In this document: positions 1 to 23,571 of the stretch, piece after piece
Layout: each line of letters starts with the position of its first letter
Numbering within the stretch: the stretch's first letter is position 1
From: Chloroflexota bacterium
GTDB taxonomy: Bacteria; Chloroflexota; Limnocylindria; P2-11E
DNA length: 48,827 nt
Reading direction: 5' to 3'
Assembly (NCBI GenBank): GCA_021787445.1
Contig: JAJYLV010000009.1
Span: 1 to 48,827 of the forward strand
Position numbers and translations under genes: made by a program
Notes under the pieces: model-generated
What the model saw: only the letters and a program-made list of their open reading frames with translations
Databases searched by the model: none
Told to the model about the DNA's origin: nothing

Positions 1-231
1 CCGATGACCCTGCAGAGCGGCCGCGTCATGTACCGCGAGCTCTCCGTCATCGGGACGCTCGGCTCACGCCCCATCGACTTCCCCGTCGTCATGGACCTCG
101 TGAAGCGCGGGAAGCTGAACGCCGCGGCGCTCGTGACGCACCGCCACACGCTCGATCAGGTCAACGAGGGCTTCGACGAGCTGCGCAAGGGCGTCGGCAT
201 CCGTCACGTGGCGGTGATCGCGGCCGCTTAG
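1..231 (+). CDS. Zinc-type alcohol dehydrogenase (MDR family), C-terminal fragment
   Basis: The reading frame is open from the first base of the window and ends at TAG 229-231, so only the last 76 residues are seen. The sequence reads like the end of a medium-chain dehydrogenase: a GRVMYRELSVIGTLGSR stretch matching the strand-turn after the Rossmann domain, then a V-x-H-R-H-T-L-D-Q-V-N-E-G-F-D motif typical of the final helix in threonine/alcohol dehydrogenase-like proteins, and a short hydrophobic tail. The internal ATG at position 4 is not a real start because the family homology continues to its left. The substrate cannot be told from this piece. Its high GC matches the chromosome and not the island that begins just downstream. 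Confidence 0.8.
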   Translation, partial: PMTLQSGRVMYRELSVIGTLGSRPIDFPVVMDLVKRGKLNAAALVTHRHTLDQVNEGFDELRKGVGIRHVAVIAAA

Positions 232-408
232 CGCCTTGGCTCGGGCCTAACTGGGCGCGGCATCTCGACGATGCACGTTTCCCTATCTGCCCTGTGTCGC
301 CTATAGCGTCCTCGCGACGCCGTAAGGACGCATTCACCGACCCGTGGCGCTATTCCGTCGCGCTACCTATGCTTTGCAGTCACTCGTTGAGGGGGAAGTG
401 CTACGTGC
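232..408. other. Left border of the defence-like island; intergenic
   Basis: This 177-bp stretch separates the dehydrogenase from the island and holds no gene. A 7-bp inverted repeat (GCGTCCT 306-312 with AGGACGC 325-331, 12-nt loop) could be a weak terminator or operator. A possible -10 box, TATGCT at 368-373, has no convincing -35 partner at the right spacing. A purine-rich GAGGGGGAAG at 389-398 sits about 10 nt before the GTG at 409 and is a fair ribosome binding site. No integrase, att site or tRNA is seen. Confidence 0.4.
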
Positions 409-1794
409 GTGCACGAGGACAGTCCTCGTGAATTCGCGGCAGCGGGCGCGAGGAGAGAGGAAAAAGGCGCCGGCCTGCGCGTCGTGACCTCACCGATGAT
501 TTTTGTCCATTTGTCCGATCTGCACTTGGATCAACAGCCTCTCGGCAGCGTCTTCGACGTCGACGCAGATCTCAGAGCGATGGTTGAGAACGACATATCG
601 GAAGCACTCATGCAGATTGGGCGAGCAGACGGAGTCTTAGTAACCGGGGACATCGCCTTCTCGGGACATTCCGCCGAGTACGACAAGGCGCAGGTCTGGC
701 TCGACCGGCTTACCCAGACGATTGGCTGCGACAGCGAACGCGTCTGGACGGTGCCCGGTAATCACGATGTGGACCGTTCGGTCCTGTCCGCCTATCCGAC
801 AATTCGAGAACGCCATGATCGGGTTAGACGCTGCGATGTGGCCGGAATCCCAGCTGAGCTGAGGGTTGGATTGACCTCGGACACACCCACCGTCCTCGCT
901 CCGTTGGAGAACTATGTGGCGTTTGCGTCCGCGTATTCGTGCGAGATCACCCCTCAGCAGCCGTTCTGGCGGGTGGAGATGCCGCTAGGTTCCGGGCGCG
1001 CGTTGATTCTCTGTGGCTTGACCTCGCCCCTTATCTCTGGCGCGTCCGACGACAACAACGCCAATAGATTGGCGCTGGGCAAGTTCCAGGCGCTCATCCC
1101 CTATCGGCCGTCCGACGTCGTTGTCACGCTCTGTCACCACCCAACGGATTGGCTCCGTGACTACGAGGAGGTCGCCACCTACCTCGACGCGCGCGCTCGT
1201 CTTCAACTCTTTGGACATAAGCATGACTTGCGGATGCAGCGTGTTGACGACTCTGTCAAGGTTCACGCTGGCGCTCTACATCCCGAACGAGGCCCGGGGT
1301 GGGACCCCCACTACAACATCATTTCAATAGAGCCTTCGCAGATCGGCGCGACGATAACTATCTATCCTCGGAAGTGGTACCGCGAGACGTGCGCTTTTGG
1401 CGCCGACTACGCGCCTTCCGGGGAGCAGTGGCGACGATACGAACTTCCTCTTGCTCCCGTATCGGCGGCGCCGGCACTGCCACCAGCTCACCTCGAAGCG
1501 GCCGGGCTGCTACCGCAAGACGTAGAGGCAACGCAACCGCTCGTGGAGTCTCCTGTTCGTGTTCTCGCCAACGGGCTCGGGCGCTTGAGTTATCTCACAC
1601 TTCTTGCCCTCGGTTCGCGGCTGGGATTGACTGGCGCGGATGACCGTCGCCTCAGGTCGGTCGAGCTGCTGAATCTCTTGATTCGTAGGGCAGACGAAGC
1701 GGGGCAGCTTGGCGTGCTATGGGACGAGACCTCCTGCCACGTTGAGGGGATGGCGCTCAAGGCGAACCCATATCGGGGAGGGAAGGACCGATGA
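409..1794 (+). CDS. Calcineurin-like metallophosphoesterase with C-terminal extension; first gene of GTPase/GAP1 cassette
   Basis: 461 residues from GTG 409; GTG 484 or ATG 496 are alternative starts because the catalytic fold begins at residue 30. All metal-binding blocks of the calcineurin superfamily are present: DLHLD (37-41), GDIAFSG (80-86), GNHDVD (117-122), the HH pair (243-244) and GHKHD with His270 and His272. An intact di-metal hydrolase is therefore expected, probably cutting a phosphodiester in a nucleotide or nucleic acid. After the core (to about 330) comes a Pro/Ala-rich linker (about 345-385) and then a roughly 65-residue helical region with an ELLNLLIRRADEAGQL stretch. This resembles the small death-like effector-associated domains that tether effectors to NTPases; that reading is inference. 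The stop overlaps the next gene (ATGA, 1791-1794), so the two are translationally coupled. Context suggests it is the effector or output enzyme of the cassette. Confidence 0.85.
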   Translation: MHEDSPREFAAAGARREEKGAGLRVVTSPMIFVHLSDLHLDQQPLGSVFDVDADLRAMVENDISEALMQIGRADGVLVTGDIAFSGHSAEYDKAQVWLDRLTQTIGCDSERVWTVPGNHDVDRSVLSAYPTIRERHDRVRRCDVAGIPAELRVGLTSDTPTVLAPLENYVAFASAYSCEITPQQPFWRVEMPLGSGRALILCGLTSPLISGASDDNNANRLALGKFQALIPYRPSDVVVTLCHHPTDWLRDYEEVATYLDARARLQLFGHKHDLRMQRVDDSVKVHAGALHPERGPGWDPHYNIISIEPSQIGATITIYPRKWYRETCAFGADYAPSGEQWRRYELPLAPVSAAPALPPAHLEAAGLLPQDVEATQPLVESPVRVLANGLGRLSYLTLLALGSRLGLTGADDRRLRSVELLNLLIRRADEAGQLGVLWDETSCHVEGMALKANPYRGGKDR

Positions 1795-2876
1795 CTGACC
1801 CTCGTTTCGCAGACTGGTATCACGCAGCGGCCATCGACCCGAGGCAGGTGCCGCTGGATTTGAGATGGAGCGGGGTGGACGAAGCGGCCGCTAAGACGAA
1901 CGTCGCCGCTATTCCCGAGCTCGTCAGATCGGCGAGTCTCGAATCGTTCAATGACTCCGCGTCCAGAACGGCATTCCAGTCGAGATTCAAGACAAGCGAT
2001 CCGGCATTCTTGATGGAGAACAACGAGCAAGAACTCGCGGTGCTAGCGGCAGCAACTCTCATGCAGATGTTCTCGGCGCCGTCCCAACGTGCTGATTTCG
2101 CCGCATCTCTGCTCAGGACAGCACGTTTCAATCGCTGGCGCTCAGTCGTTCGTGATTTGCCTGCCACGGGCGAGCGTTATCTTGCGGCTCGCAGCGCTGA
2201 TCTCCGCAAGGTTACTGCGCCTCAACCGCCCGACGTTGACGGCGCGGGTTGGGCAGCGTCCGTGGCAGCAGCAAAGACCGAAGCAGCTGGTCAGACGGCA
2301 CTTGTGACGCTTTTGACCCGCCTCGAGGGCTATGTTCCCGCTGACGCCGAGTCCGCCAACAAGGCGCTGCAGGCGATGGCGATGGACGTGGGTCGGTTTG
2401 CTGGACGCATCGGCGAAGAGGTCAACATTCTCTGGTGGCTCTTCGGCGAGCGCAGCACGCTAGGCGGACGTCTCTGGCATGAGATGCCGCCGGCCTCTGT
2501 GCCGTTAACCGCTGCCGTCGAGCTGGACGGCCTAGTGACCGTCGTGCCCGGTCCCGTCGCGAGTTCGCAGTTCCTGGCGCGCGTGCTTGATTCGGCTGGA
2601 ATCGATTTGCGCGAGGAGGTCCCAATCGCCGACCTTCTGTCCGGTGGAGTTGATTTCGTCGCGGCGGAGGTCAAGGGTGATGACGGGTTGGGTTCACTAA
2701 CACCCCTGATATCCGGCATACGTTCGCGTCGGGAAGGGGATGAAGCTTGGGTCGGGTCTGCTGAGAGGGCGAGTGGGATTAGCCTCAGGCAGCCAAGAGC
2801 ACGTCTGGAGATTGCATCGCAGTTCATGAATGAACTCTGGAGTCTGCGACTCAGGCGGGTGCTCGCAAAGGAGTGA
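1791..2876 (+). CDS. GASH-like helical protein of GTPase-associated system
   Basis: 361 residues, almost entirely predicted helical, with no catalytic motif. The middle part carries EEVNILWWLFGERST (about residues 208-222), followed by a stretch reading VPLTAAVELDGLVTVVPGP. This pattern resembles, from memory, the GTPase-associated system helical domain (GASH), a scaffold found with double GTPases and GAP1 proteins; the match has not been checked by a profile search. The N-terminal 60 residues, with a Trp-Tyr pair and a TNVAAIPELVRSASL segment, could be a separate adaptor piece. It starts at ATG 1791 inside the preceding stop and ends in GTGA shared with the next gene (2873-2876). Likely role (inference): bridge between the phosphoesterase and the GTPases. 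Its base composition is lower in GC than the flanking chromosome, like the other four genes. Confidence 0.65.
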   Translation: MTDPRFADWYHAAAIDPRQVPLDLRWSGVDEAAAKTNVAAIPELVRSASLESFNDSASRTAFQSRFKTSDPAFLMENNEQELAVLAAATLMQMFSAPSQRADFAASLLRTARFNRWRSVVRDLPATGERYLAARSADLRKVTAPQPPDVDGAGWAASVAAAKTEAAGQTALVTLLTRLEGYVPADAESANKALQAMAMDVGRFAGRIGEEVNILWWLFGERSTLGGRLWHEMPPASVPLTAAVELDGLVTVVPGPVASSQFLARVLDSAGIDLREEVPIADLLSGGVDFVAAEVKGDDGLGSLTPLISGIRSRREGDEAWVGSAERASGISLRQPRARLEIASQFMNELWSLRLRRVLAKE

Positions 2877-3763
2877 CCGACGAAGCCGTCGCAACGCTGT
2901 CGAGTCCGGCCGGGTATCACGCTGCAGCTGGAGAAGCCCTTTCTGTTGCCGATTCATTCTCGATAACGCGCCGAGCCCCGACAATTGTTGTTGCGCCGCT
3001 CGGACCTCAAGGTTGCGGCAAGACGACGCTCATCACGACGATGTACGACCAATTCCAACTCGGGCCATTCGCCGGTCATCTATTCGCTGGTTCCGAATCA
3101 CTCATCGGGCTTGAGAATAGGAGCTTCCTGTCCCGCACTGTCTCAGGCGAGACGAACGCTCGCACCGAGCGGACGGAGGTCGGCGCGGGCGAGCAATACC
3201 TTCATCTTCGGCTGCAGGAAGAGCGACAGCACGAGCGGCCTCGCGATGTTCTGATCGCGGACATGTCGGGAGAGATATTTGAGAAGCTCAGAGATCAACC
3301 GGCTTTGGCTGCTCAATTCCCAGTCATACAGGCAGCCCACGCTCTGGCGGTGTTCGTTGACGGGGAACTACTGGCGTCGGCCAAACGGCATCACTCTGTT
3401 CTGTACGACGCACGGATGCTGCTCGCCGCCATAGTCCAGGAAGCTCCACCGAACCCGCATCGCATCTTCCAGATTGTCATCACGAAGTGGGACGTGCTCG
3501 CGAAGGTAGGTCGCGCGGAAAGCGAAGTCCGCAACGAAGTACTTCAAGTCGCGGACGGGCTGCTTCCTCGCCCTGCCAGCCAACCTGACCTCTTCGTGAC
3601 AGCTGCGCGGCCCGGCGGGAGTGCAGCGCCTTGGGCCTACGGATGCGCAGCATTGCTGTCTTCGTGGATGAAGTTGGACTCCGAGCAGGCTGCGATGGAT
3701 GAGCAATGGCAAGCGACTGCCGACAGATTCTTCGATCGATTCAAGGCGCACACGCGAACATGA
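2873..3763 (+). CDS. P-loop GTPase, double-GTPase type (DO-GTPase2-like)
   Basis: 296 residues from GTG 2873, which overlaps the previous stop. GTPase motifs are clear: P-loop GPQGCGKT (44-51); a beta-strand ending in ADMSGE (129-134), where a D-x-S-G-E box replaces the usual DxxG; TKWD (204-207) as the G4 guanine-recognition motif; and VTAARP (242-247) as a G5-like motif. A GPFAGHLFAGSESLIGLENRSF segment follows the P-loop, and a RTE...YLHLRLQ segment precedes the G3 strand, both as I recall them for the DO-GTPase2 family. There is no membrane segment. The family is placed by computational work in NTPase-driven conflict systems, where a GTPase pair is thought to sense or license the effector. 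It ends at 3763 inside the start of the second GTPase (ATGA 3760-3763). Confidence 0.8.
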   Translation: MTDEAVATLSSPAGYHAAAGEALSVADSFSITRRAPTIVVAPLGPQGCGKTTLITTMYDQFQLGPFAGHLFAGSESLIGLENRSFLSRTVSGETNARTERTEVGAGEQYLHLRLQEERQHERPRDVLIADMSGEIFEKLRDQPALAAQFPVIQAAHALAVFVDGELLASAKRHHSVLYDARMLLAAIVQEAPPNPHRIFQIVITKWDVLAKVGRAESEVRNEVLQVADGLLPRPASQPDLFVTAARPGGSAAPWAYGCAALLSSWMKLDSEQAAMDEQWQATADRFFDRFKAHTRT

Positions 3764-4596
3764 ACGAGCATCGGCTTGTAATGACTGGAATGCCAGCTGC
3801 CGGCAAGACCACGTTTCTTGCTGCGCTCTGGTCCTTAGGGATTAGTCCACATGCGAATGTTTCCTATCGCACTGAGTACATCGAAGGCGACGTCGGGTAC
3901 TTGAATAAGATTGGCCTTGCGTGGGCTGAATGCACGGAACTGGGTCATACGGAGTTCTCGCGAGTGGAATCCTGCGTTCTGAGACTCCGTGACGCTCGGC
4001 TAGGAACTTCGGAGCGGCTTGCCATTCCCGACCTCTCCGGTGAGGTCTTCGTGCATCTTCTGAAGGAACGCGCGTGGGACAGCCGCGTCGCCGGACCGCT
4101 GCTGGAGACGGAGGGGCTCTTGCTGTTCGTAAACTGCGAGAAGGTGCAGGAGCCCGCGTGGATATTCGAATCCGAGGCTCCCGCCGATACGCCGACTACT
4201 CCATGGTCGCCAGAACTGATTCCGACGCAGACACAGTTGGTGGACTTGCTGCAATGCATCTGTGACCTGCGTTCACATAGGGAGACGCGTCTTGCCATCA
4301 TGGTCTCCGCGTGGGACCGTGCTGCGTCCATCTATGCAGATCCTAGTCTTTGGATGAGTGATCACCTGCCGTTGCTTACGCAGTACCTGGTCGCCAATTC
4401 GCTCGTCTGGCCCAACAAGGCCTTCGGGATAAGCGCGCAGGGCGGGCCATTGCCTCAGGACGAAGCGAGGCTGCTCGCGATGAGCCCTGACGAGCGCCCT
4501 TTCATCGTTGAAGGTGCAGCGTCAACCTCGTCGGCGGACGTGGCGCTATCGCCGCACGATCTAGGCGCGCCCGTTCGCTGGCTCGTCGCGCGGTAG
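3760..4596 (+). CDS. Second P-loop GTPase of the pair (DO-GTPase1-like)
   Basis: 278 residues from ATG 3760, chosen because it overlaps the upstream stop as ATGA; an in-frame ATG at 3706 would bury 54 bp in the previous gene and lacks support. Motifs are P-loop GMPAAGKTT (10-18) followed by FLAALWSLG, a strand ending IPDLSGE (89-95) with the same D-x-S-G-E box as its neighbour, SAWD (183-186) at the G4 position in place of N/TKxD, and ISAQGG near residue 228 as a G5-like element. The protein is related to, but clearly diverged from, the preceding GTPase and not a recent duplicate. The N-terminus has the G-x-P-x-x-G-K-T-T-F-L-A-A-L-W pattern of DO-GTPase1 as I recall it. Five bases separate its stop from the GAP1-like gene. 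Confidence 0.75.
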   Translation: MNEHRLVMTGMPAAGKTTFLAALWSLGISPHANVSYRTEYIEGDVGYLNKIGLAWAECTELGHTEFSRVESCVLRLRDARLGTSERLAIPDLSGEVFVHLLKERAWDSRVAGPLLETEGLLLFVNCEKVQEPAWIFESEAPADTPTTPWSPELIPTQTQLVDLLQCICDLRSHRETRLAIMVSAWDRAASIYADPSLWMSDHLPLLTQYLVANSLVWPNKAFGISAQGGPLPQDEARLLAMSPDERPFIVEGAASTSSADVALSPHDLGAPVRWLVAR

Positions 4597-4601
4597 TCAC
4601 C

Positions 4602-6515
4602 GTGCCCATTGAACAAGCCATCTACGGCTACCGCGACGGACACCGCCTACTCGCTGCTTCCTTCGATATCCCGAAGACTTACGAGTTGAAGCTGTTAAGC
4701 CTGACGGACCCCATACTCGACAAGGCGAGCCCTATTCATCTCAGCGGAGTGGCGCTAGAAAGGCACTTCTTCGCCATTTCGAGGACGTGGCCGGCACCAG
4801 AAGAGGCGCGGCCTGGCGCCGTGTGGTCTCACGTCCTCTTTCTTCCGCCCGAAATGATTGAGAGTGCTTACCTGCCGAGCACGATTCTGTCGCTACTCGC
4901 CAGACCTCACGGACAACCATCCTCCGCCCGTCTCCCGACTCTCGCCCATGTTCGTCTCGATGAAGGTGAACCGCCGATTCCTCTTCCTGAACGACGGTTG
5001 CGAAAGGTCCTTGCACAGCTCTACGGAACCGAAGAGACAGTTGATGTCTCAGGGTCACTCGGTGAGCAGTGGGATTACGCACTCTGGCGAATCTGGGCTC
5101 AACTCTGGCCGGCGATGCGTTGGAACTTCGCATTCGTCGTCGGCTCGCGTCAGCCATCATCGATGACTCGATTCGATCTTCAGGTCGACTTTCGACTTCG
5201 CTCAACGACAGACGCAAGCGCGACCTCCGACCGCGAAGAATCGTTATGGGTGCAGTGGCTAGCCAATGACCTCCGGTCGGGAGACAAGCGCCTCAGTCGA
5301 CTGCTGTGGAGATATGGGCCGAGCCTCCCCCCCGTCCGTCGCAGTGTGATGGAGTTGGTTACTGCCGTTTGTGCCGTCGAGCCAAGACCAGCCACCACTG
5401 AGAGCGCGTATCACGCGTTAGTCGTAGGCCTCGCAACCCTATTGCAGAGCCGTGAGACGACCTCAGTCGTGCGCGGATTCTTAGGTGGCGATGCCATTCG
5501 TGATCCAGATCTAGTTGACTTGAGTGATGATCGAGTCTTGCCAGTGCTGCTGCACTCAGCACCGTTGGTGCCGGTTGATGACATCGACTTCATAGGTCGC
5601 ATGGCGCGGTGGTGGGCGCAATCGCCCGATAAGGCTTTCAAGACGCTTGAAATGGCGATCCGCGATAGTTGGCCGTGGGCTGCTGACTTCGCCCACGCCT
5701 CTGCTCGAATCGCCGCGGACCCAATACTCACGCGCCTGCCGTCGTCCAGCATCGGCGTGGCGACGTGGTCGGAGGCAATGCCTCAGTTGGCAAGTCGCGT
5801 CGAATTGTGGACGCAGTTCGCTGACCGCGAATTGGAGATTGCCGAGTCCGTAATCGATGCGAACGAGACCGTCGTGAGTCGCGAGGAAGTCATATCGGCG
5901 GTCGTCCGATCGAACGCGGACCTAGCTGTACACGCTTTCGTCGCTAGTTGGGGTGTGGACGCTATCGAAGCAGCATTGCGGAGTGCTAAGAACGGTAGCC
6001 TCTCGCAGGGTTGGCTTGACGAGATTCGAGGTCACAGCAGCGAGTTGGCCGCAGCGGCCGACCGCATTGCGCATAAACCGGTCGAATTGGGGAATCTGAT
6101 TGGATCTGGCGCGATAAACATCGAAACGTGGGCGCGCCTCCTAGACCCGAAGGAAATGTCGGCGATGCTTGCACGAGGCGATGGATGCTCCGACTACTCG
6201 CGACGACTTCGTGTGACGTGCGGGTTCCTCAACGCGCTTAGGCACGAGGACGCGTCTACCTTGCCGCTATTGATTGACTGTTTCGTGCCGCTGCATGAGG
6301 AACTAGCTGATCGGGTGTACCCAGAACATCTCTGGTGGATTCTTGAGAGATATCTCGTAAGGCCCAAGCTCTTGCGGGATTGGGACAGGTGCGACCGCCT
6401 TCGCCGAACCGTCGCACTCGTCTTCAAAGAGCGGAATGGCGACGCCGCCCTCTTGCGGCGAGCCGCAGCGCGAATCAGGAATGGCAGCAGTCTGGAGCAT
6501 CTCGCCCAGACTTAG
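4602..6515 (+). CDS. GAP1-like protein (GTPase-associated protein 1)
   Basis: 637 residues from GTG 4602. The N-terminus shows QAIYGYRDGHRLLAAS (5-20), then a SLTDP box and a GAVWSHVLFL strand (about 72-81). This is the hallmark N-terminal module of GAP1 proteins that accompany double GTPases. The middle (about 170-330) and C-terminal (about 340-637) parts are mostly helical, with Trp-rich segments (WARLL, WWILERYL), and have no enzymatic motif I can recognise. Known context of the family (computational, not biochemical) is as an obligate partner of DO-GTPases in conflict systems; a role in modulating GTP hydrolysis or in sensing is inference, and the name does not mean a proven GTPase-activating protein. 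It closes the cassette; the next gene is chromosomal in composition and 71 bp away. Confidence 0.75.
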   Translation: MPIEQAIYGYRDGHRLLAASFDIPKTYELKLLSLTDPILDKASPIHLSGVALERHFFAISRTWPAPEEARPGAVWSHVLFLPPEMIESAYLPSTILSLLARPHGQPSSARLPTLAHVRLDEGEPPIPLPERRLRKVLAQLYGTEETVDVSGSLGEQWDYALWRIWAQLWPAMRWNFAFVVGSRQPSSMTRFDLQVDFRLRSTTDASATSDREESLWVQWLANDLRSGDKRLSRLLWRYGPSLPPVRRSVMELVTAVCAVEPRPATTESAYHALVVGLATLLQSRETTSVVRGFLGGDAIRDPDLVDLSDDRVLPVLLHSAPLVPVDDIDFIGRMARWWAQSPDKAFKTLEMAIRDSWPWAADFAHASARIAADPILTRLPSSSIGVATWSEAMPQLASRVELWTQFADRELEIAESVIDANETVVSREEVISAVVRSNADLAVHAFVASWGVDAIEAALRSAKNGSLSQGWLDEIRGHSSELAAAADRIAHKPVELGNLIGSGAINIETWARLLDPKEMSAMLARGDGCSDYSRRLRVTCGFLNALRHEDASTLPLLIDCFVPLHEELADRVYPEHLWWILERYLVRPKLLRDWDRCDRLRRTVALVFKERNGDAALLRRAAARIRNGSSLEHLAQT

Positions 6516-6586
6516 CCGCTGAGATGCGCGACAAGGCGTAAGGAATCAAGACAAGTAGGCCGCCCGATGCGCTACGTTGCGTCGGG

Positions 6587-7699
6587 ATGGCCCCTTTCGA
6601 TTGGCTGCGAACCGACCAGGTCGGTAGCCTTCTCCGTCCCGCGCGGCTGAAGGACGCGATCGGCGGGTACCAGCGCGGCGAGGTCGACGAGGCCGCGCTC
6701 GCGGCGGTCGGGGACGACGCGATCCGCGAGGCCGTCGCGGCTCAGGAGCGCGTCGGGATGCCCGTCGTCACCGACGGCGAGATGCGGCGCTTCAACTTCC
6801 AGGACTCCATGGCGCGGGCGATCTTCGGGTTCGACGCATGGCTCGACCGCTGGAAGCTGAAGCCGGCGGATCGCGGGGCGAAGACCCCGGGGCACGCTCC
6901 GCTCATCACGCGGCATCGCGCGAGCGAGCGCATCTCGCTGCGGCGCAACCTGCCGCTCGAGGAGTGGCGCTTCACATCGGCGCTGACGGCGCGACCGGTG
7001 AAGGTGACGCTCATCGGTCCCGACCGGATCTCGCAGGTGTTCGATGCGGCGGCATCGAGCGACGTGTATCCGACCGTCGACGCGTTCGTCGACGACGTCG
7101 TCGCCGTCGAGCGGCGGATCGTGAGCGAGCTCGCCGCGGCGGGCTGCCCGTACGTGCAGATCGACGCGCCCTCGTACACGGCGTACGTCGATGAGGGGTC
7201 GCTGGCGGACATGCGCGCGCGCGGGATCGATCCGGAGCGCGCGCTGGCACGGTCGATCGCGGCCGACAACGCCGTGATCGCGGGCATCGAGGGCGTCACC
7301 TTCGGGATCCACGTCTGCCGCGGCAACGAGCGGAGCATGTGGCACCGCGAGGGGCCGTACGACGCGATCGCCGAGCGGCTCTTCGCCGGGCTCGCGCACC
7401 GGCGGCTCCTGCTCGAGTACGACACCGAGCGCGCGGGGACGTTCGCGCCGCTGCGCTTCGTCCCGAAGGACAAGATCGTCGTTCTCGGCCTGGTGACGAC
7501 GAAGTCACCCGAGCTCGAGGGCGTCGACAGCCTCCTGGGGCGGATCGACGAAGCGTCCCGCTACGTCCCCGTCGAGCGCCTCGCGCTCTCACCGCAGTGC
7601 GGGTTCGCCTCCGACGTCACGGGCAACCTCCTCGACGAGGACGCGCAGTGGCGCAAGCTCGAGCGCGTGGTCGAGGTCGCGCGGCGGGTGTGGGGCTAG
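6587..7699 (+). CDS. MetE C-terminal-like (cobalamin-independent methionine synthase II) methyltransferase
   Basis: 370 residues from ATG 6587. The protein has the UROD/MetE-like barrel start LRTDQVGSLLRP, a TLIGPDRISQ strand, a YVQIDAPSYTAYV strand, an IHVCRGN strand with putative zinc ligands His242 and Cys244, and SPQCGFAS carrying Cys338 as a further ligand. These agree with the C-terminal catalytic domain of MetE. The usual N-terminal half of MetE is missing, as in the archaeal-type short enzymes and in many uncharacterised epoxyalkane:CoM transferase or demethylase relatives. The methyl donor and acceptor are therefore uncertain. High GC and codon use place it in the core chromosome, outside the island. 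It probably stands alone, with 240 bp before the next gene. Confidence 0.85.
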   Translation: MAPFDWLRTDQVGSLLRPARLKDAIGGYQRGEVDEAALAAVGDDAIREAVAAQERVGMPVVTDGEMRRFNFQDSMARAIFGFDAWLDRWKLKPADRGAKTPGHAPLITRHRASERISLRRNLPLEEWRFTSALTARPVKVTLIGPDRISQVFDAAASSDVYPTVDAFVDDVVAVERRIVSELAAAGCPYVQIDAPSYTAYVDEGSLADMRARGIDPERALARSIAADNAVIAGIEGVTFGIHVCRGNERSMWHREGPYDAIAERLFAGLAHRRLLLEYDTERAGTFAPLRFVPKDKIVVLGLVTTKSPELEGVDSLLGRIDEASRYVPVERLALSPQCGFASDVTGNLLDEDAQWRKLERVVEVARRVWG

Positions 7700-7939: not shown

Positions 7940-8911
7940 GTGCCGACGGAAGGGCCCGACGCGGAAGAAATGCCGGACCCCCGTCCGCTCGCCGCGAACG
8001 ATTCGCCCACTGCACGCCGGGACTTCCTCCTCCGGACAGTAGCGGCGCTGGTCGCGGGAGCGGCCCTGCCGCTGGCGGGTCTCAAGAACGTCGCCAGCGC
8101 GGCACCGCCGGCAGCAGTGGCGGGCGGGCCGACCGGGCCGGTCCCGACACTGGACATCAGCCCACAGGCGGGCGAGGACGTGCTCATCCGCATGCAGCGG
8201 GAGCTCGCGCGTGCCCTGGTCAAGCCCATGGACGAGCGCAAGTGGGGGATGGTCATCGACACGCGCAAGTGCGTCGGGTGCGCCGCCTGCACCGTCGGGT
8301 GCTCCCTCGAGAACAAGCTCCCCCCGGGGGTGGTGTATCGGCCCATGACCGACACCGAGGTCGGCACGTACCCCAACGTGACGCGGCGCTTCATCCCGAG
8401 GCCGTGCATGCAGTGCGAGAACCCGCCCTGCGTCGCGGTCTGCCCGGTGGGCGCGACGTTCAAGCGCCCCGACGGCATCGTCGCGATCGACTACAACGCG
8501 TGCATCGGCTGCCGTTACTGCCTCACCGCCTGCCCGTACCAGGCGCGCACGTTCGACTTCGGCGCCGACTGGACCGACAACGCGGCCTCCGGTCGGCCCG
8601 CCGCCCTGGCGCTGGACGGCGCCACCGGATACGAGCACCTTGCGGGCTTCGAGTACGGCGAGAAGTGGACGCGCGCTGAGGGCGTCATCCCCCAGAGCCC
8701 GGTCGGGAACGCGCGCAAATGCACCTTCTGTGCCCACCGTCTGGAGAAGGGCATGTTGCCGATGTGCGCCACGACGTGTATCGGACGCGCGACCTTCTTC
8801 GGTGACCTCAACGATCCGACCTCGCTGGTCTCCGAGCTCGCCGCGAGCGCGAACGCGACGCGCCTCAAGGAAGAGCTGGGCACCGAGCCGAAGGTGTTCT
8901 ACCTGCTGTGA
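7940..8911 (+). CDS. Tat-exported 4Fe-4S electron-transfer subunit (TtrB/PsrB-like)
   Basis: 323 residues from GTG 7940; ATG 7970 is an equally good start because the signal peptide lies after it. A twin-arginine signal, ARRDFLLRT (Arg26-Arg27) followed by an Ala/Leu-rich stretch, indicates export as a folded protein. Four ferredoxin-type cysteine groups follow: [11 protein letters not shown] (from Cys111), [24 protein letters not shown] and [20 protein letters not shown]. This is the standard layout of the B subunit in complex-iron-sulfur molybdoenzymes. It would carry electrons between the NrfD-type quinol module and the molybdenum subunit encoded just downstream. AGGAGG after its stop serves the next gene. 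Confidence 0.9.
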
Positions 8912-8924
8912 GGAGGGACCGACC

Positions 8925-10157
8925 GTGACGGCGAACGCGCAGGTCCGCCAGCCGGCGACAGCGGCGGTCCTATCTGGACTGCGGTATGGCCTCTTCGCGA
9001 TATGGCTGCTCGCGGCGATCGCCGGCGGCTACGCGATCGCGCAACGGCTGCTGCTCGGTGAGCGTCTTGCGGCCTACTCCAGCTACATCCCCTGGGGGCT
9101 GTGGGTCAGTGCATACATCTTCTTCATCGGCCTGTCCGCCGGTGCGTTCCTGCTCTCGAGCCTGGTGTACGTCTTCAGGCTCCGCCAGTTCGAGCGGGTC
9201 GGACCGCTCGCCCTCTTCGTCGCGGTGGTGACCCTCGCGATGGCCCTGCTCTCCATCCTCTTCGACCTCGGCCACATGGAGCGCTTCTGGGAGGTGTACG
9301 TGCGGCCCCAGTGGCACTCGATGATGGCCTGGATGGTCTGGCTGTACACGGCCTACTTCGTACTCCTCGTCGCGGAGCTCGGCGTCGCCCTCCACCGCCG
9401 CTCGTCCGAACGGAGCTCCAGCCAGCTCCTGCGCGATGACCGCATCCTCCTCGTCCTCGGATCCATCGGCGTCCCGCTCGCGGTCGCCTTCCACGGCGGC
9501 GTCGGCGCTCTCTTCGCGACCGTGGTCGCTCGCGAGTACTGGAATACCGCCGTCTTCCCGATCCTCTTCCTGAGCGGCGCTCTCCTCTCGGGCAGCGGCC
9601 TGCTCATGGCCATCGTCGTCTTCCTGTGGCCGCGCCGGGACGCCGCCTGGCGTCAGCTCGTCGCCGACCTCGCGCGCGTCGTGGCCGGCCTTGTCCTCCT
9701 CGAGCTTCTGCTGGAGTTCGCCGAGTACTCGATCCCGGCCTGGTACCAGGTCGGTCCGCAGTCATCGCTCATCGTCTACGTCCTGTTCGGTCCGTACTGG
9801 TACGTGTTCTGGGTCGTGTATGGCCTCTTCGGCGTCGCCGTGCCTCTCGTCCTCCTCACCCGGCGCGACCCCTTCGTGAGGGGCATCGGCGCGGCGCTCG
9901 TCGCGGTGACGTTCTTCGCCGTGCGGCTGGATCTCGTGATCCCGGGACTCGTCACCCCGGAGCTCAGAGGGCTCGAGCGCGCGTACCTCGATCCCATCGG
10001 AGGCCGCCTCAGCTACCTCTACAGCCCCAGCGTCTTCGAGTGGCAGGTCACTCTGGGGGTCGTGGCCATCGGGGCCGCTCTGTTCTACCTCGGGCAGCGC
10101 TTCCTGCCGCTCATGACGGACGTGAGAGAAGACCGGTCCAAGGAGCGGGCAGGATGA
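8925..10157 (+). CDS. NrfD/PsrC/TtrC-type quinol-oxidising membrane subunit
   Basis: 410 residues from GTG 8925, chosen because AGGAGG at 8911-8916 lies 8 nt upstream; longer in-frame readings run back through the iron-sulfur gene. About nine to ten hydrophobic helices are visible, starting with LRYGLFAIWLLAAIAGGYAIA and including the SYIPWGLWVSAYIFFIGLS segment and the DLGHMERFWEVYV stretch typical of NrfD proteins. The subunit anchors the iron-sulfur and molybdopterin subunits and exchanges electrons with the quinone pool, without haem. Its stop overlaps the start of the catalytic subunit (ATGA, 10154-10157), which supports a fixed stoichiometry within one complex. Confidence 0.9.
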   Translation: MTANAQVRQPATAAVLSGLRYGLFAIWLLAAIAGGYAIAQRLLLGERLAAYSSYIPWGLWVSAYIFFIGLSAGAFLLSSLVYVFRLRQFERVGPLALFVAVVTLAMALLSILFDLGHMERFWEVYVRPQWHSMMAWMVWLYTAYFVLLVAELGVALHRRSSERSSSQLLRDDRILLVLGSIGVPLAVAFHGGVGALFATVVAREYWNTAVFPILFLSGALLSGSGLLMAIVVFLWPRRDAAWRQLVADLARVVAGLVLLELLLEFAEYSIPAWYQVGPQSSLIVYVLFGPYWYVFWVVYGLFGVAVPLVLLTRRDPFVRGIGAALVAVTFFAVRLDLVIPGLVTPELRGLERAYLDPIGGRLSYLYSPSVFEWQVTLGVVAIGAALFYLGQRFLPLMTDVREDRSKERAG

Positions 10158-13100
10158 GCAGCGGAACGAAGGGCCCCCGTATCTCCCGGCGACAGGTGCT
10201 GCAGGCGGGTGCACTCACGGCGGGCGGTGTCCTCCTCGGGGACTGCGGCTACCTGACGACGCGGTCCACGCAGCCCGGCCCGCAAGGCTCGTTCTATCCG
10301 CTGGACGATCCGAACGCCGTCATCCATACGACCTGCCTCCAGTGCAACACCCAGTGCACGCTCAAGGTGAAGCTGCAGGACGGCATCGTGGCGAAGATCG
10401 ACGGCAACCCCTATAGCCCGATGAACCTCCTGCCGTCCCTCCCCTACGCGCAGCCCTTGGCCGGCGCCGCGCGCGTGGACGGGTCGGTCTGCCCCAAAGG
10501 GCAGGACGGGGTGCAGACCCTCTACGACCCCTACCGGCTGCGCACGGTCCTGAAGCGCGCCGGCCCGCGCGGCTCGGGCAAGTGGCGGAGCATCCCCTTC
10601 GACCAGGCCATCCGCGAGATCGTGGACGGCGGCCCGCTCTTCGCGGACCTCGGGGAGGCGCGGAACGTCACCGGCCTCAGAGACATCATGGCGCTGCGCG
10701 ATCCGGCCCTGGCCAAGCAGATGGCCGCGGACGTGGGCGCCGTCCGATCGAAGACCCTCAGCGTCGCGGCCTTCCAGGCCAAGCACCGCGACCACCTGGA
10801 CGTCCTCATCGATCCCGACCACCCCGACCTCGGCCCCAAGAACAACCAGTTCGTCATGCTCGGCGGCCGGATCGCGCCGGACCGCGAGAAGATCACGCAG
10901 CGCTTCACCTTCGGCTCGCTGGGATCGGTCAACTGGTACGGCCACACCACCATCTGCGAGCAGGCGCATCACATCGCCTTCCTCTACGCGACAGCGCAGT
11001 GGGCCGGGAAGGACGGGTGGAAGCAGGGCACGAACCACATGAAGCCCGACTACACCCGATCGGAGTTCGTCATCTTCTGGGGCACCGGCTTCTCCGAAGC
11101 GAACTTCGGGCCGAACCCGATGTCCATCCGCGTCGCGCAGGCGCTCGTGGACGCCAAGCTCAAGGTCGCGGTCATCGACCCGCGCCTGTCGAAGAGCGCC
11201 GCGAAGGGCTGGTGGATCCCCGTGCGCCCGGGCGGCGACCTCGCGCTGGCCATGGGGATGATCCGCCGGATCATCGACGAGGGGCGGTACGACGGGGCCT
11301 TCCTGAGGAACGCGAACGCCGCGGCCGCGACCGCCGGAGGCGAGAGGTCGTGGACGAACGCGACGTGGCTCGTCGATCCAGCGACCGGCCGCTTCCTGCG
11401 CGCCGACGCCGCGGGCGTGGGCTCCCCGCAGCAGTTCGTCGCCCTCGTCGGCGGCGCCCCCACCGCGGTCGACCCCGGCGACAAGACGCACGCCGTCGTG
11501 GGCGACCTCGACGCCTCCGCGACCGTCGCGGGGGTGGCGGCCAAGACGAGCTTCCGCCTCCTGCGCGAGAGCGCGCAGCAGCACGACCTGGCCTTCTATG
11601 CGAAGGAGAGCGGCCTGGAGGAGAAGACGATCGTCGACCTCGCGACCGAGCTCACCGCCCACGGCAAGAAGGCGGCCATCGACTTCTACCGGGGGCCCAT
11701 CAAGCTCACGTACGGGTACTACTCGGCGCAGGCGATCATCACGCTCAACTACCTCATCGGGAACGTCGACCACGTGGGTGGCCTCGTGCCCGGAGGTGGA
11801 TCCTGGGACGGCCAAGGCGGGCAGAAGGGCCAGCCCTTCCCGCTCGACGCCCTGCATCCCGGAGCGCTCACGAAGTTCGGGGTCAAGCTCAACCGCGAGG
11901 CCAGCGGCAGCTACGAGTCGAGCACGCTCTTCTCGGGCTATCCGGCGAAGCGCCCCTGGTACCCGCTCACCGGCGACGTCTACCAGGAGGTCATCCCCGC
12001 CGCGTACGCCGGCTACCCCTACCCCATCAAGATGCTCTGGCTCCACTACGGGACGCCGGCCCTCGCGGCTCCGGCCGGCCATCTCCAGATCGCCATGCTG
12101 CGCGACGTCGACCGCCTGCCGCTCGTCATCTCGACCGACATCGTCATCGGCGAAACGAGCATGTACGCGGACTACCTCTTCCCCGACTTCGCGTACCTCG
12201 AGCGCTGGTCGAACGCGATCGGGACGAGCCCGGTCGTCCTCACGAAGATCACCAAGTTCCGCCAGCCCGCGGCCGCCCCTCTCACCGCGACGGTCAGGGT
12301 CGACGGCGCCGAGATGCCGCTCGGGATGGACACCGTGCTCATCGCGCTCGCCAAGGCCCTCGGGGCCTCTGGCTTCGGCAAGGACGCGCTGGGGCCCGGC
12401 CGGCCCCTCGACCGTCCTGAGGACTACTACCTGAAGATGGTCGCGAACCTTGCCGCTGGCGACGGTCCCGGCGACGAGGTCCCTCCCGCGAGCGACGCGG
12501 ACATGACCGTGTTCCGGGCGGCGCGCGCGCACCTGCCGGCTTCGGTCTTCGACGAGTCACGCTGGCAGGCGTCCGCCGGCGAGAGCTGGCCGCGGGTCGT
12601 CACCGTGCTCACGCGTGGGGGGCGTTTCGAGGACACGACCAAGGCCTACACGGGCGGCTTCGCGGCTCATTCGTGGGGCAAGCTCCTCGACCTCTACGCC
12701 GAGCCGGTCGCCACGACCACGGACTCGATGACCGGGGAGCGGTTCAGCGGGGTGCCCGTGTACCAGACGCTGCGGTCTTCGGACGGCCAGCCGGTCACCT
12801 TCCCGACCGAGTACGACCTCGACCTCTTCACGTACAAGGAGATCTGGGGTACCCAGTCGCGGACGGTGGGCAACTACGCCGCGCAGATGTCCTTGATGCC
12901 GGAGAACTTCGTGTACCTGAACGTCGTGGACGCGCGGCGCCTGGGATTCGCCGACGGCACTCCGGTGCGCCTCGAGAGCCCTGGGTTCGGCGGCTCCATC
13001 GACCTCGGCTCGGGGGCGCCGGTGGTCGTCCAGGGCAGGGTGAAGACGGTCCAAGGTGTGCGTCCCGGCAGCGTCGCGATCTCCTTCCATTACGGCCACT

Positions 13101-13510
13101 GGGCCTACGGCGCGCGAGACGTGACCATCGACGGTCAGGTGGTCCCCGGCGAGCCGGTCCGTGGCAAAGGCCTCGCCCCCAATCCCGCGATGAGCGTGGA
13201 CCGTCACCTCAAGGACGTGGCGCTCACGGACCCCATCGCGGGAGACAGCGCGTTCAACGGCACCAGGGTGCGGCTCGTGCGCGTCGGCGATCCCGACACG
13301 CGCGGCCTGCCGGGCGCCGGGAGCTACCTCCTCGTCCCGCCAGTGGTGGGCTCGGTGCCCGCGGATGACGCGCGATGGCTCCAGGAGCAGGGGCTCCGTG
13401 CGGCGCGCGGGGAACACGACCCCGGTGCGTTGCGGGCCGAGATAGAGGCACGGCTCGGCCGGGTGGACCGCGCTCGTGTGGTGCAGCCGCGGTCCCCCCG
13501 TGGTGCGTAG
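10154..13510 (+). CDS. ttrA: Molybdopterin oxidoreductase, tetrathionate reductase A-like
   Basis: 1118 residues from ATG 10154. A twin-arginine leader (ISRRQVLQAGAL) targets it to the Tat system. Cys61, Cys64, Cys68 and Cys113 form the N-terminal 4Fe-4S site. Cys271, in GHTTICEQAHH, is the likely protein ligand to molybdenum. The long catalytic body and the C-terminal dinucleotide-binding part (EIWGTQSRTVGNYAAQ, then DGTPVRLES) resemble TtrA within the DMSO-reductase superfamily, larger than formate dehydrogenase and close in size to TtrA and ArrA. Probable role: reduction of tetrathionate or another oxyanion (polythionate, arsenate, selenate) with quinol electrons, or the reverse. The substrate cannot be fixed from sequence. 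The FmdE-like gene starts inside its end. Confidence 0.8.
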   Translation: MSSGTKGPRISRRQVLQAGALTAGGVLLGDCGYLTTRSTQPGPQGSFYPLDDPNAVIHTTCLQCNTQCTLKVKLQDGIVAKIDGNPYSPMNLLPSLPYAQPLAGAARVDGSVCPKGQDGVQTLYDPYRLRTVLKRAGPRGSGKWRSIPFDQAIREIVDGGPLFADLGEARNVTGLRDIMALRDPALAKQMAADVGAVRSKTLSVAAFQAKHRDHLDVLIDPDHPDLGPKNNQFVMLGGRIAPDREKITQRFTFGSLGSVNWYGHTTICEQAHHIAFLYATAQWAGKDGWKQGTNHMKPDYTRSEFVIFWGTGFSEANFGPNPMSIRVAQALVDAKLKVAVIDPRLSKSAAKGWWIPVRPGGDLALAMGMIRRIIDEGRYDGAFLRNANAAAATAGGERSWTNATWLVDPATGRFLRADAAGVGSPQQFVALVGGAPTAVDPGDKTHAVVGDLDASATVAGVAAKTSFRLLRESAQQHDLAFYAKESGLEEKTIVDLATELTAHGKKAAIDFYRGPIKLTYGYYSAQAIITLNYLIGNVDHVGGLVPGGGSWDGQGGQKGQPFPLDALHPGALTKFGVKLNREASGSYESSTLFSGYPAKRPWYPLTGDVYQEVIPAAYAGYPYPIKMLWLHYGTPALAAPAGHLQIAMLRDVDRLPLVISTDIVIGETSMYADYLFPDFAYLERWSNAIGTSPVVLTKITKFRQPAAAPLTATVRVDGAEMPLGMDTVLIALAKALGASGFGKDALGPGRPLDRPEDYYLKMVANLAAGDGPGDEVPPASDADMTVFRAARAHLPASVFDESRWQASAGESWPRVVTVLTRGGRFEDTTKAYTGGFAAHSWGKLLDLYAEPVATTTDSMTGERFSGVPVYQTLRSSDGQPVTFPTEYDLDLFTYKEIWGTQSRTVGNYAAQMSLMPENFVYLNVVDARRLGFADGTPVRLESPGFGGSIDLGSGAPVVVQGRVKTVQGVRPGSVAISFHYGHWAYGARDVTIDGQVVPGEPVRGKGLAPNPAMSVDRHLKDVALTDPIAGDSAFNGTRVRLVRVGDPDTRGLPGAGSYLLVPPVVGSVPADDARWLQEQGLRAARGEHDPGALRAEIEARLGRVDRARVVQPRSPRGA

Positions 13511-20278: not shown

Positions 20279-21280
20279 ATGCAGCGTGGCCGGACCATCG
20301 ATCATGTCAACGACGGCATGCTCGAGATCCGGTACGAATCCATCGGTGGGTTGGGGGCGCACGCCGCGGGGCAAGTGCTCGCGACGGCCGCCGTGCTGCG
20401 GATGGGGATGAACGGGGCGCATTTCTCGAGCTACGGCTCCGAGAAGAAGGGGACGCGGATCCGCTCGTTCATCCGCCTGGGGCCGTCCGACCGGCCGATC
20501 CGGACGAACGCCCCGGTCGAGACGCCGAACGCGATCGTCGTCTTCCACGCCGCGCTCCTCCGCGACCCCACGACGTACGCGGGGCTCCGGAGCGACGGCG
20601 TCTTCATCTACGACGCGCCGCCGGGGCCCGTTCCGCCGCAGCTGACCGCTCTGCCGCGACACGCGCGAGCCATCCGCGTCGACGCTCAAGGCATCGCCGC
20701 CGCGGAGCGTTCGCGCCCCAACGCCGTCCTGCTCGGCACGCTCTGTGCGGCGATCCCGCTGCTCGACACCGACCTGGTCCTCGAGGAGCTGAACGCGACG
20801 TTCAGTGCGCGCCATCCCGAGGCCGTCGCCGCCAACGAGCGCGCGTTCCGTCGCGGCCGCGAGGAGTTCGAGGAGTACGCCGGGGTCGGCCGCGCCCAGG
20901 GTGACGTCCCTCCGTCGCGCCCCCAGCCCGCGTGGGGCTACACCACGCAGCCCCTCGGCGGCGTCATCCCGCTGCCCGGGAACACGGCCTGGAACGACCT
21001 CTCGTCGTCGCGCACGGGACACATCGCCGTGCTCGACCGCGACAAGTGTGTGCACTGCGGGGTGTGCGACCTCGTGTGCCCCGACCTCTGCTTCGTCTGG
21101 GGCGATGGTGAGCAAGGCTCCCCTTACGAGCGCGAGCTCATGGGCATCGACTACCGGTACTGCAAGGGCTGTCTGCGCTGCGTCGAATCGTGTCCGAGCG
21201 GCGCGCTTTCGAAGCAGGCGGAGACGCCGGGCCTCGCCGACTCCCTGCGCGTCCCGCTCTTTCCCGGGGTGATCCCGTGA
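20279..21280 (+). CDS. 2-oxoacid:ferredoxin oxidoreductase, fused gamma and delta (ferredoxin) subunits
   Basis: 333 residues from ATG 20279; ATG 20318 is also possible, since the gamma domain begins LEIRYESIGGLGAHAAGQVL there. Residues 14-205 are the gamma domain with the glycine-rich start and the GSEKKGTRIRSFIR block. After a linker, residues 250-310 hold two 4Fe-4S motifs, CVHCGVCDLVCP and CKGCLRCVESCP, which is the delta subunit. The protein would pass electrons from the thiamine centre of the next gene product to ferredoxin. The fused gamma-delta form is a lineage marker. Its stop overlaps the next gene (GTGA, 21277-21280). The substrate could be pyruvate, 2-oxoglutarate or an aryl or branched 2-oxoacid; the sequence alone does not decide. 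Confidence 0.88.
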   Translation: MQRGRTIDHVNDGMLEIRYESIGGLGAHAAGQVLATAAVLRMGMNGAHFSSYGSEKKGTRIRSFIRLGPSDRPIRTNAPVETPNAIVVFHAALLRDPTTYAGLRSDGVFIYDAPPGPVPPQLTALPRHARAIRVDAQGIAAAERSRPNAVLLGTLCAAIPLLDTDLVLEELNATFSARHPEAVAANERAFRRGREEFEEYAGVGRAQGDVPPSRPQPAWGYTTQPLGGVIPLPGNTAWNDLSSSRTGHIAVLDRDKCVHCGVCDLVCPDLCFVWGDGEQGSPYERELMGIDYRYCKGCLRCVESCPSGALSKQAETPGLADSLRVPLFPGVIP

Positions 21281-23571
21281 CGATGACGCTGCCCGGACGA
21301 TCGACGGCGGTGACCCCGCGGGCGCGGCAGAAGATGGACTTCCGCAGCGGGAACGAGGCGGCCGCCCTCGCCGCGCGCGACATCGCCTTCGAGGTCATGG
21401 GGTACTTCCCGATCACGCCCTCGACGGAGGTCGCCGAGGAGCTCTCGCGGATGCAGGCCGAAGGCGAGCACCAGATCGTCATGATCGCCGGCGACGGCGA
21501 GCACGGCGCCGCCGGCATCTCGTACGGCGCGGCGCTCGGCGGCGGCCGTGTCCTGAACGCAACGAGCTCGCAGGGGCTCCTCTATTCGCTCGAGCAGCTG
21601 CCCGTGCAGTCCGGCACGCGCGTGCCGATGGTGCTCGACATCGCGGCGCGGACGGTCTCCGGACCCCTCGACATCCGCGGCGACCACTCCGACGTGTACT
21701 ACGCGCTCAACACCGGCTGGATCATCCTGTGCGCCCGCGACCCTCAGGCGGTGTACGACCTCAACTTCGCGGCGGTCCGCATAGGCGAGCACCCCGACGT
21801 CCGCCTCCCCGTCATGGTCGTGTACGACGGCTTCTTCACGAGCCACCAGAAGCGGCGCATCAGCGTCTTCGACGACCCCGCGGCCGTACGCGCCTTCCTG
21901 GGGCAGCGGCCCGCGTACCCGACGCCGCTCGACCTCGAGCATCCCGCGACGTACGGGCCGTACATGAACGATCCCGATCTCATCAACAACAAGGTGCAGC
22001 TCTCGGAGGCGATGTCCGCCGCGCGGCGCGTCATCCCCGACGTCCTCGCGCAGCTCGCGGCGCTCACCGGCCGCTCGTACCCGGTCCTCGACGAGTACCG
22101 CGTGGGCGACGCCGAGGCGGCCGTCGTCCTCCTCAACTCCGCTGCCGAGACGGCAAAGGGAACGGCCGACCGGCTGCGCGACGCCGGCGAGCGCGTCGGG
22201 GTGCTCTCGCCGAACGTCCTGCGGCCCTTCCCGGCCGAGGAGTTCCGCTCCGCCCTGCGCGGCGTCCGCGCCGTGACGATCGGCGACCGCGCCGACTCCT
22301 ACGGCGCGGACGGCGGCAACCTCTCTCTCGAGATCCGTGCCGCGATCCAGGCCGATCCGGTCAACCGCACCCTCGTGGCCTCGCGCGTCTACGGCCTCGG
22401 CGGGAAGGACTTCTACGACACGGATGCCGAGGCGTTCTTCCGCGACGCCATCAAGGCCGCGCGCTCGCGGGTCGTCGCGACGCCGTTCGCCTACCACGGC
22501 GCGACGGCGGGCGCGCCCGAGCGCGCGCCGCGTCCGGGGCTGCCGCCGATCACCGGCCGCGACATCCCGACGGGGATGGCGACGGTCCGCTCGAACGGGA
22601 ACGGGAAGCTGTCCGTCGAGCTCGCGCCTCTGTGGAAGATGACGGAGGTCCCCAGCCGTATCGCGCCCGGACACGGCGCCTGCCCGGGGTGCGGGATCTT
22701 CCCGACGCTGCACCAGGTCTTCCGCGTCCTCGAGGGCGACGTCGTCGCGCTCTTCGCGACGGGCTGCGCGATGGTCGTGTCGACGGGCTACCCGACGACC
22801 GCGCACCGCATCAACTACGTCCACAACCTGTTCCAGAACGGCGCGGCGACGCTCTCGGGCCTAGTCGAGATGTACCACGAGCGCGTCCGACGGGGGCAGC
22901 TGCCGCCGGCCAACGAGCCCACGTTCGTGATGATCAGCGGCGACGGCGGGATGGACATCGGCATCGGGCCGGCGCTCGGCGCCGCGCACCGCGACCACAA
23001 GATGATGCTCCTCGAGTACGACAACCAGGGGTACATGAACACCGGCGCACAGCTGTCGTACTCCACGCCGCTCGGGCACCGCACCGCGACGAGCGAGGTC
23101 GGGAGCGAGCTCGCCGGCAAGAAGTACCACCACAAGGACACGGCACAGATCTTCGCCGCGTGCCACCTGCCGTACGTCTTCACCGCGAGCGAGGGTTACC
23201 CCGAGGACCTCATGCGCAAGGTCGCGAAGGCGCAGCGCTACGCGCGCACGGAGGGGATGGTCTACGGCAAGATCCTCTCGTACTGTCCGCTCAACTGGCG
23301 CACCGACGACGACCAGGCGCAGCCCGTCCTGCAGGCCGCCGTCGACTCGTGCTTCTTCCCGCTGTACGAGGTCGAGCACGGCCACACGACGATCACGTAC
23401 GACCCCGACGCCGTCGGCCGCCGCCGTCCCGTCGGCGACTGGCTCGGGCTCATGGGGAAGACGCGCCACCTGCTCCAGCCGAAGAACGCCGAGATCGTGA
23501 AGCTCGTCCAGCAGGAGACCGACCGCCGCTGGAAGCGGCTCCGTGCGATGCACGATCACCCGGAGCTGTAG
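21277..23571 (+). CDS. 2-oxoacid:ferredoxin oxidoreductase, fused alpha and beta subunits
   Basis: 764 residues from GTG 21277; ATG 21283 is an alternative with GGGGTGAT 9 nt upstream. The alpha part (about 15-430) starts FRSGNEAAALAARDIAFEV with the GYFPITPSTEVAEEL block and includes the SSQGLLYSLEQLP loop. The beta part (about 460-764) holds GHGACPGCG with cluster cysteines, FATGCAMV, and the thiamine diphosphate motif GDGGMDIG...DNQGYMNTG. Together with the upstream gamma-delta protein this makes a full enzyme that decarboxylates a 2-oxoacid to acyl-CoA while reducing ferredoxin, or runs in reverse. Fusion reduces the complex to two polypeptides. The next gene begins immediately after the stop. 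A phenylglyoxylate-type enzyme that also uses NAD through a GltD-like subunit is an alternative. Confidence 0.88.
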   Translation: MTMTLPGRSTAVTPRARQKMDFRSGNEAAALAARDIAFEVMGYFPITPSTEVAEELSRMQAEGEHQIVMIAGDGEHGAAGISYGAALGGGRVLNATSSQGLLYSLEQLPVQSGTRVPMVLDIAARTVSGPLDIRGDHSDVYYALNTGWIILCARDPQAVYDLNFAAVRIGEHPDVRLPVMVVYDGFFTSHQKRRISVFDDPAAVRAFLGQRPAYPTPLDLEHPATYGPYMNDPDLINNKVQLSEAMSAARRVIPDVLAQLAALTGRSYPVLDEYRVGDAEAAVVLLNSAAETAKGTADRLRDAGERVGVLSPNVLRPFPAEEFRSALRGVRAVTIGDRADSYGADGGNLSLEIRAAIQADPVNRTLVASRVYGLGGKDFYDTDAEAFFRDAIKAARSRVVATPFAYHGATAGAPERAPRPGLPPITGRDIPTGMATVRSNGNGKLSVELAPLWKMTEVPSRIAPGHGACPGCGIFPTLHQVFRVLEGDVVALFATGCAMVVSTGYPTTAHRINYVHNLFQNGAATLSGLVEMYHERVRRGQLPPANEPTFVMISGDGGMDIGIGPALGAAHRDHKMMLLEYDNQGYMNTGAQLSYSTPLGHRTATSEVGSELAGKKYHHKDTAQIFAACHLPYVFTASEGYPEDLMRKVAKAQRYARTEGMVYGKILSYCPLNWRTDDDQAQPVLQAAVDSCFFPLYEVEHGHTTITYDPDAVGRRRPVGDWLGLMGKTRHLLQPKNAEIVKLVQQETDRRWKRLRAMHDHPEL

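Follow-up and report, generated by a model that had tools for sequence, protein, structure and literature searches.

What are the five tightly coupled genes at the start of this Chloroflexota contig, and do they serve in conflict with invading DNA? The window, meaning the whole 48,827-nucleotide stretch that was analysed, runs from the first base of contig C11 onward in an assembly of 2.5 Mb (185 contigs, 95% complete). A sequence-only reading had proposed an uncharacterised defence cassette of five genes on one strand, led by a metallophosphoesterase (MPE). As claimed there, all of the open reading frames were found on the plus strand, joined by overlaps (ATGA at 1791-1794, GTGA at 2873-2876 and ATGA at 3760-3763) and by one 5-bp gap (4597-4601). 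The list of reading frames was borne out, with a correction to the first start: because the proteins of relatives begin (MxLLHLSDIHF) at the residue matching ATG 496, GTG 409 probably lies 29 codons upstream of the true start. All five proteins matched the expected families, with GASH, DO-GTPase2, DO-GTPase1 and GAP1-N1 above their Pfam cut-offs (27 bits each) and the MPE scoring 36.1 bits against Metallophos (PF00149; cut-off 21.5 bits). The features are as follows, with GAAD denoting the GTPase-associated adaptor domain.

Positions 1 to 231, plus strand: left flank, the 3' end of a host gene within which the contig begins, dehydrogenase-like by eye
Positions 225 to 6566, no strand: span of the insertion that carries the cassette (left edge 221-231, right edge near 6565), from alignments of the flanks to empty sites
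Positions 496 to 1794, plus strand: calcineurin-like MPE effector with a C-terminal adaptor (PF00149 and motifs; reading frame open from GTG 409)
Positions 1549 to 1752, plus strand: diverged GAAD at the C-terminus of the MPE (HMM of relatives, E = 5.8e-4)
Positions 1791 to 2876, plus strand: GASH, all-helical (PF19994, 48.4 bits)
Positions 2873 to 3763, plus strand: DO-GTPase2 (PF19993, 137.5 bits; motifs)
Positions 3760 to 4596, plus strand: DO-GTPase1 (PF19975, 175.7 bits; motif census)
Positions 4602 to 6515, plus strand: GAP1-N1, with a beta-rich domain at the N-terminus and a helical solenoid after it (PF20012, 67.6 bits)
Positions 6587 to 7699, plus strand: right flank, a host gene resembling cobalamin-independent methionine synthase (PF01717, 57.2 bits)

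Because 92 loci from many phyla carry this gene set, almost all in the same order, the association is far beyond chance. Kaur, Burroughs, Iyer and Aravind (eLife 2020; PMC7159879) described the GAP1-N1 systems computationally and predicted that they serve in immunity. Each unites GAP1 and GASH with two DO-GTPases and an effector that varies; the effector is most commonly a calcineurin-type phosphoesterase and often bears a C-terminal GAAD. Layout and effector are identical here, so the window cassette is a member of this published, predicted kind, and the label 'uncharacterised' does not hold in the sense of undescribed. It shares with those systems both DO-GTPases, GASH, the N1-type GAP1, the phosphoesterase, the GAAD and the predicted logic, and differs from them in the lack of a zinc ribbon in its GTPases, in its diverged GAAD and in its long branch. 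The GAP1-N2 systems of the same study also combine a DO-GTPase with GAP1, but they have another GAP1 N-domain, FNIII repeats in place of GASH, and membrane and zinc-ribbon features that are unseen in the window. In the literature searched, no paper beyond Kaur et al. 2020 was found to mention these components in this sense, and no phage-protection experiment on a DO-GTPase/GAP1/GASH system turned up.

The cassette is a clean insertion from outside, acquired horizontally. In a congener (G001, contig C50), the site is empty: the left flank is 94.5% identical to that of the window, the right-flank gene is 88% identical, and 35 bp separate the flanks. A second cassette-free site is present in the same metagenome-assembled genome (contig C115, bases 1-453, locus L018), matching window positions 1-224 and 6565-6714; its left flank (99.1% identity) is followed by a spacer of about 80 bp and then by the beginning of the right-flank gene, which matches the window exactly from about position 6619 to 6714, where that contig ends. 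The simplest reading is that C11, with the cassette, and C115, without it, represent two strains of one population, separated as an assembly bubble; alternatively, the site may be present twice within one genome. Composition is also foreign, with a GC content of 0.60 in the cassette versus 0.71 downstream, and a third-position GC of 0.63-0.68 versus 0.90-0.94 in the two host genes examined alongside it. At the borders of the insertion, neither an integrase nor direct or inverted repeats were found; promoter or terminator signals and repeats did not rise above chance, and the left-flank fragment (1-231) gave no Pfam match. Downstream, the cassette adjoins a host respiratory operon (7940-13510) encoding a 4Fe-4S subunit and a molybdopterin oxidoreductase, and a pyruvate:ferredoxin oxidoreductase lies further along (20279-23571).

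Conservation of the genes across the phylum, as expected of a housekeeping operon, was looked for and did not occur. None of 150 relatives had GASH, and none of 399 further genomes from the phylum had GAP1-N1, placing the cassette in 1 of 151 relatives and 1 of 400 genomes of the phylum, and in a second phylum, that of one surveyed locus, 3 of 398 other genomes carried it. When GTDB species genomes were scanned for DO-GTPase1, 116 loci were returned, of which 80 were kept, in Pseudomonadota, Bacteroidota, Planctomycetota, Acidobacteriota, Chloroflexota, Spirochaetota, Bacillota and others, many of them on large chromosomal contigs. Most carrier genomes searched had one GAP1-N1 match (37 of 40); three had two, which in G535 are pieces of one broken gene. 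Using tblastn with GAP1, we found 21 plasmid records, 15 of them predicted to be conjugative. Searches with DO-GTPase1 came up empty in viral contigs and in 50,697 phage records, and no E. coli genome searched held a near-identical version of the Klebsiella copy.

Plasmid copies occur near RADAR (L030), a CBASS-like patatin/nucleotidyltransferase pair (L032), an Abi gene (L021) and restriction-modification or nuclease genes (L022 and L029), and several lie beside toxin-antitoxin genes. In the Aliivibrio plasmid copy that RADAR genes adjoin (L030, 3889-6120), an IS30 element splits the GASH gene. A PADLOC scan (E <= 1e-25) compared the flanks of 22 chromosomal copies with 22 control regions taken from those genomes. 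The flanks yielded 14 models in 130 ORFs and the controls 8 models in 108, with no clear enrichment for defence islands.

A survey of gene neighbourhoods revealed effector swapping among relatives. Over the 92 loci, some of them cut by contig ends, the order effector-GASH-DO-GTPase2-DO-GTPase1-GAP1 is near-constant, and an MPE is the usual head, occupying the effector slot in 75 of the 94 scored sequences (the window and L033 included). In other loci it is replaced by an alpha/beta-hydrolase (L026 and L055), a nucleoside phosphorylase (L040, L041, L099 and L104), a SEFIR/TIR domain in which no GAAD was detected (L105), an unrecognised head (L070) or a large P-loop NTPase of 1,234 residues with a C-terminal GAAD (L106, 3331-7032), which may be a combined sensor and effector. 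Upstream of GASH, L039 and L068 encode a small predicted membrane protein and then a short protein that has a GAAD but no recognised head; both are Chloroflexota cassettes and the closest to the window on the tree, where the window cassette forms a long branch. The slot is cut or empty in seven scored sequences, and L101 shows no effector. At least seven changes of head fall on the tree built from 85 cores, and GAAD terminates nearly all effectors in relatives. The clearest pair is L055 (alpha/beta-hydrolase) and L051 (MPE), in which core identity ranges from 65% (GASH) to 80% (DO-GTPase1) and the GAAD tails are 82% identical; because the heads are unrelated while core and tail are shared, the point of exchange lies between head and GAAD. 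Thus, a near-constant four-gene core (GASH, the two GTPases and GAP1) is combined with an effector whose catalytic head is exchangeable and whose GAAD is retained. In the EAD1 version of the system, also described in PMC7159879, an EAD1-tagged nucleoside phosphorylase (L157, 11119-12153) or caspase (L158, 12776-13879) lies downstream of an EAD1-tagged GAP1.

The phosphoesterase of the window is intact by motif, as first proposed, with DxH, GD, GNHD, HH and GHxH all in place. Its head is homologous to those of DS-8 and DS-9 (DefensePredictor, Science 2026; PMC13092281), systems that no longer defend E. coli against phage once the phosphoesterase site is mutated: residues 34-311 score 88.7 bits against the NCBIfam model DS8_antiphage (NF053861; full-length cut-off 790), and the match to DS9_1 is 55.7 bits (full-length cut-off 420). 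DS-8 differs in being a single protein with a NACHT domain and DS-9 in having a HAD phosphatase as its partner; no DO-GTPase, GASH or GAP1 figures in the description of either, and Pfam searches found no NACHT domain or HAD partner gene in the window cassette. The closest solved structures to the head are those of Rv0805 and other small class III phosphodiesterases, and of related phosphohydrolases. By sequence comparison, the predicted GAAD of the window is a diverged, weak match: it was detected with an HMM built from 12 relatives, the window being left out (E = 5.8e-4, 19.3 bits), and the Pfam model PF19976 matches 12 of 13 members, with the window copy, the thirteenth, below its reach.

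The two P-loop GTPases are indeed distinct. DO-GTPase2 (PF19993) has the P-loop GPQGCGKT followed by DMSGE and TKWD, and DO-GTPase1 (PF19975) has GMPAAGKT, DLSGE and, where NKxD is expected, SAWD. These features are family-wide: the DO-GTPase1 P-loop is intact in 94 of 94 copies and SxWD replaces the NKxD guanine motif in 93 of them, whereas DO-GTPase2 keeps [T/S]KxD in 91 of 94. An N-terminal zinc ribbon is given in PMC7159879 as typical of one DO-GTPase; it is absent from DO-GTPase2 of the window, which has no cysteine cluster ahead of the P-loop. Because 32 of the 94 surveyed cassettes, clear members among them, also fail the zinc-ribbon pattern test, the ribbon is a common feature of the family and not a strict one.

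The AlphaFold2 model of GASH is helical and confident (pLDDT 91.1), and the EEVNILWWLF block closes a long helix (186-219); a fold search with it returned no solved match at E <= 0.001 (best E 0.65), so the function of GASH cannot be read from its fold. In GAP1 (pLDDT 84.9), a conserved, beta-rich domain at the N-terminus (GYxxGH...S, D, TWxA, RPGxVWxH) precedes a helical solenoid, for which the fold matches were weak, ARM/TPR-like and generic to helical repeats, with low TM-scores. Searches of PDB sequences with GASH, GAP1 and DO-GTPase1 profiles gave no credible relative; a match of GAP1 to AncD1D2 (E 0.0066) covered only a short part of the solenoid and was rejected. GAP1 is also not to be taken for a GTPase-activating protein: the name is short for 'GTPase-associated protein 1', and homology to GTPase-activating proteins was not found.

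Effector linkage in PMC7159879 is through GAAD, EAD1 or GAP1 fusion, with GAP1 guessed to be the dock. Mirror-tree partial correlations over 69 MPE cassettes were strongest for DO-GTPase1 with DO-GTPase2 (0.42), GASH with the C-terminal part of GAP1 (0.36) and DO-GTPase2 with the N-terminal part of GAP1 (0.33). GAAD correlated with GASH at 0.22 (bootstrap s.d. 0.07) and with the C-terminal part of GAP1 at 0.02 (s.d. 0.04). Adjacency alone fails to account for the GAAD-GASH signal, because GASH and DO-GTPase2 give 0.03 although their genes adjoin. Such co-variation hints at GASH as the dock, against the published guess. We put forward, tentatively and as a doubtful proposal, that GASH and not GAP1 docks the GAAD-tagged effector, and that the GTPases are asymmetric: DO-GTPase1, carrying SxWD family-wide, would no longer recognise guanine in the normal way and would serve DO-GTPase2 as a regulatory partner.

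Taken together, we consider the locus to be, with fair probability, a DO-GTPase conflict system of the GAP1-N1 type and GAAD/MPE subtype that was acquired horizontally and has a GTP-switched mechanism, and we infer a role in defence. In this proposed mechanism, the two GTPases would pair as a heterodimer and so set a threshold, GAP1 would serve as a scaffold and perhaps as a sensor, and the effector would be held through its GAAD by GASH and GAP1. Phage or plasmid invasion would flip the GTP state and switch on the phosphoesterase, which would cut nucleotides or nucleic acid, stopping replication and probably costing the cell. The release of the phosphoesterase upon sensing of infection, as the sequence-only reading had it, is likewise a conjecture. 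Family matches, the precedent of PMC7159879, near-constant gene order, head swaps on a kept GAAD and their EAD1 counterpart, foreign GC, rarity, empty sites, plasmid carriage and the DS-8/DS-9-like head all make a conflict system the probable reading. Against it, the MPE is kept in most loci, which suggests more constancy than an arms race alone would produce; DO-GTPase1 was not found in phage records or viral contigs, where many defence systems occur too; and PADLOC enrichment is not clear and the GAAD of the window is weak.

Some of the same evidence could be read otherwise. The phosphoesterase might remove a regulatory nucleotide, as SMPDL3A degrades cGAMP, with the GTPases coordinating such an off-switch with a further immune pathway; the proximity of the head to class III phosphodiesterases such as Rv0805 and the similarity to SMPDL3A noted by the DS-8 authors (PMC13092281) favour such a role. 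We regard it as unlikely, because a nucleotide cyclase never travels with the cassette and the heads that share its slot (alpha/beta-hydrolase, nucleoside phosphorylase, SEFIR/TIR and, in the EAD1 version, caspase) are effector-like and have no signal-erasing chemistry in common. The cassette could instead be a plasmid-borne competition or maintenance system that excludes or destroys other plasmids in place of anti-phage immunity, an idea to which the plasmid records, most of them predicted to be conjugative, and adjoining toxin-antitoxin genes lend weight. With many loci on large chromosomal contigs, and with the window copy inserted bare between host genes and free of plasmid genes, we hold this to be decidedly unlikely.

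A housekeeping or stress-signalling operon with no tie to conflict would fit the PADLOC flank test, which was not positive; it is very improbable given the scarcity of the cassette in its own and the second phylum, its foreign composition, the empty site in the same genome and the swapped effectors.

Beyond the published description, what is new here is the insertion with its empty sites, the swapping of heads on a constant GAAD, the DS-8/DS-9-like MPE head and the SxWD motif of DO-GTPase1. Compact five-gene cassettes on plasmid and chromosome, together with a cassette-free allele of the same site, make the prediction of 2020 directly testable, and L055 and L051 provide a natural pair that differs mainly in the effector head. 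If the conflict reading is true, these cassettes would represent a GTP-switched form of bacterial defence with plug-in effectors.
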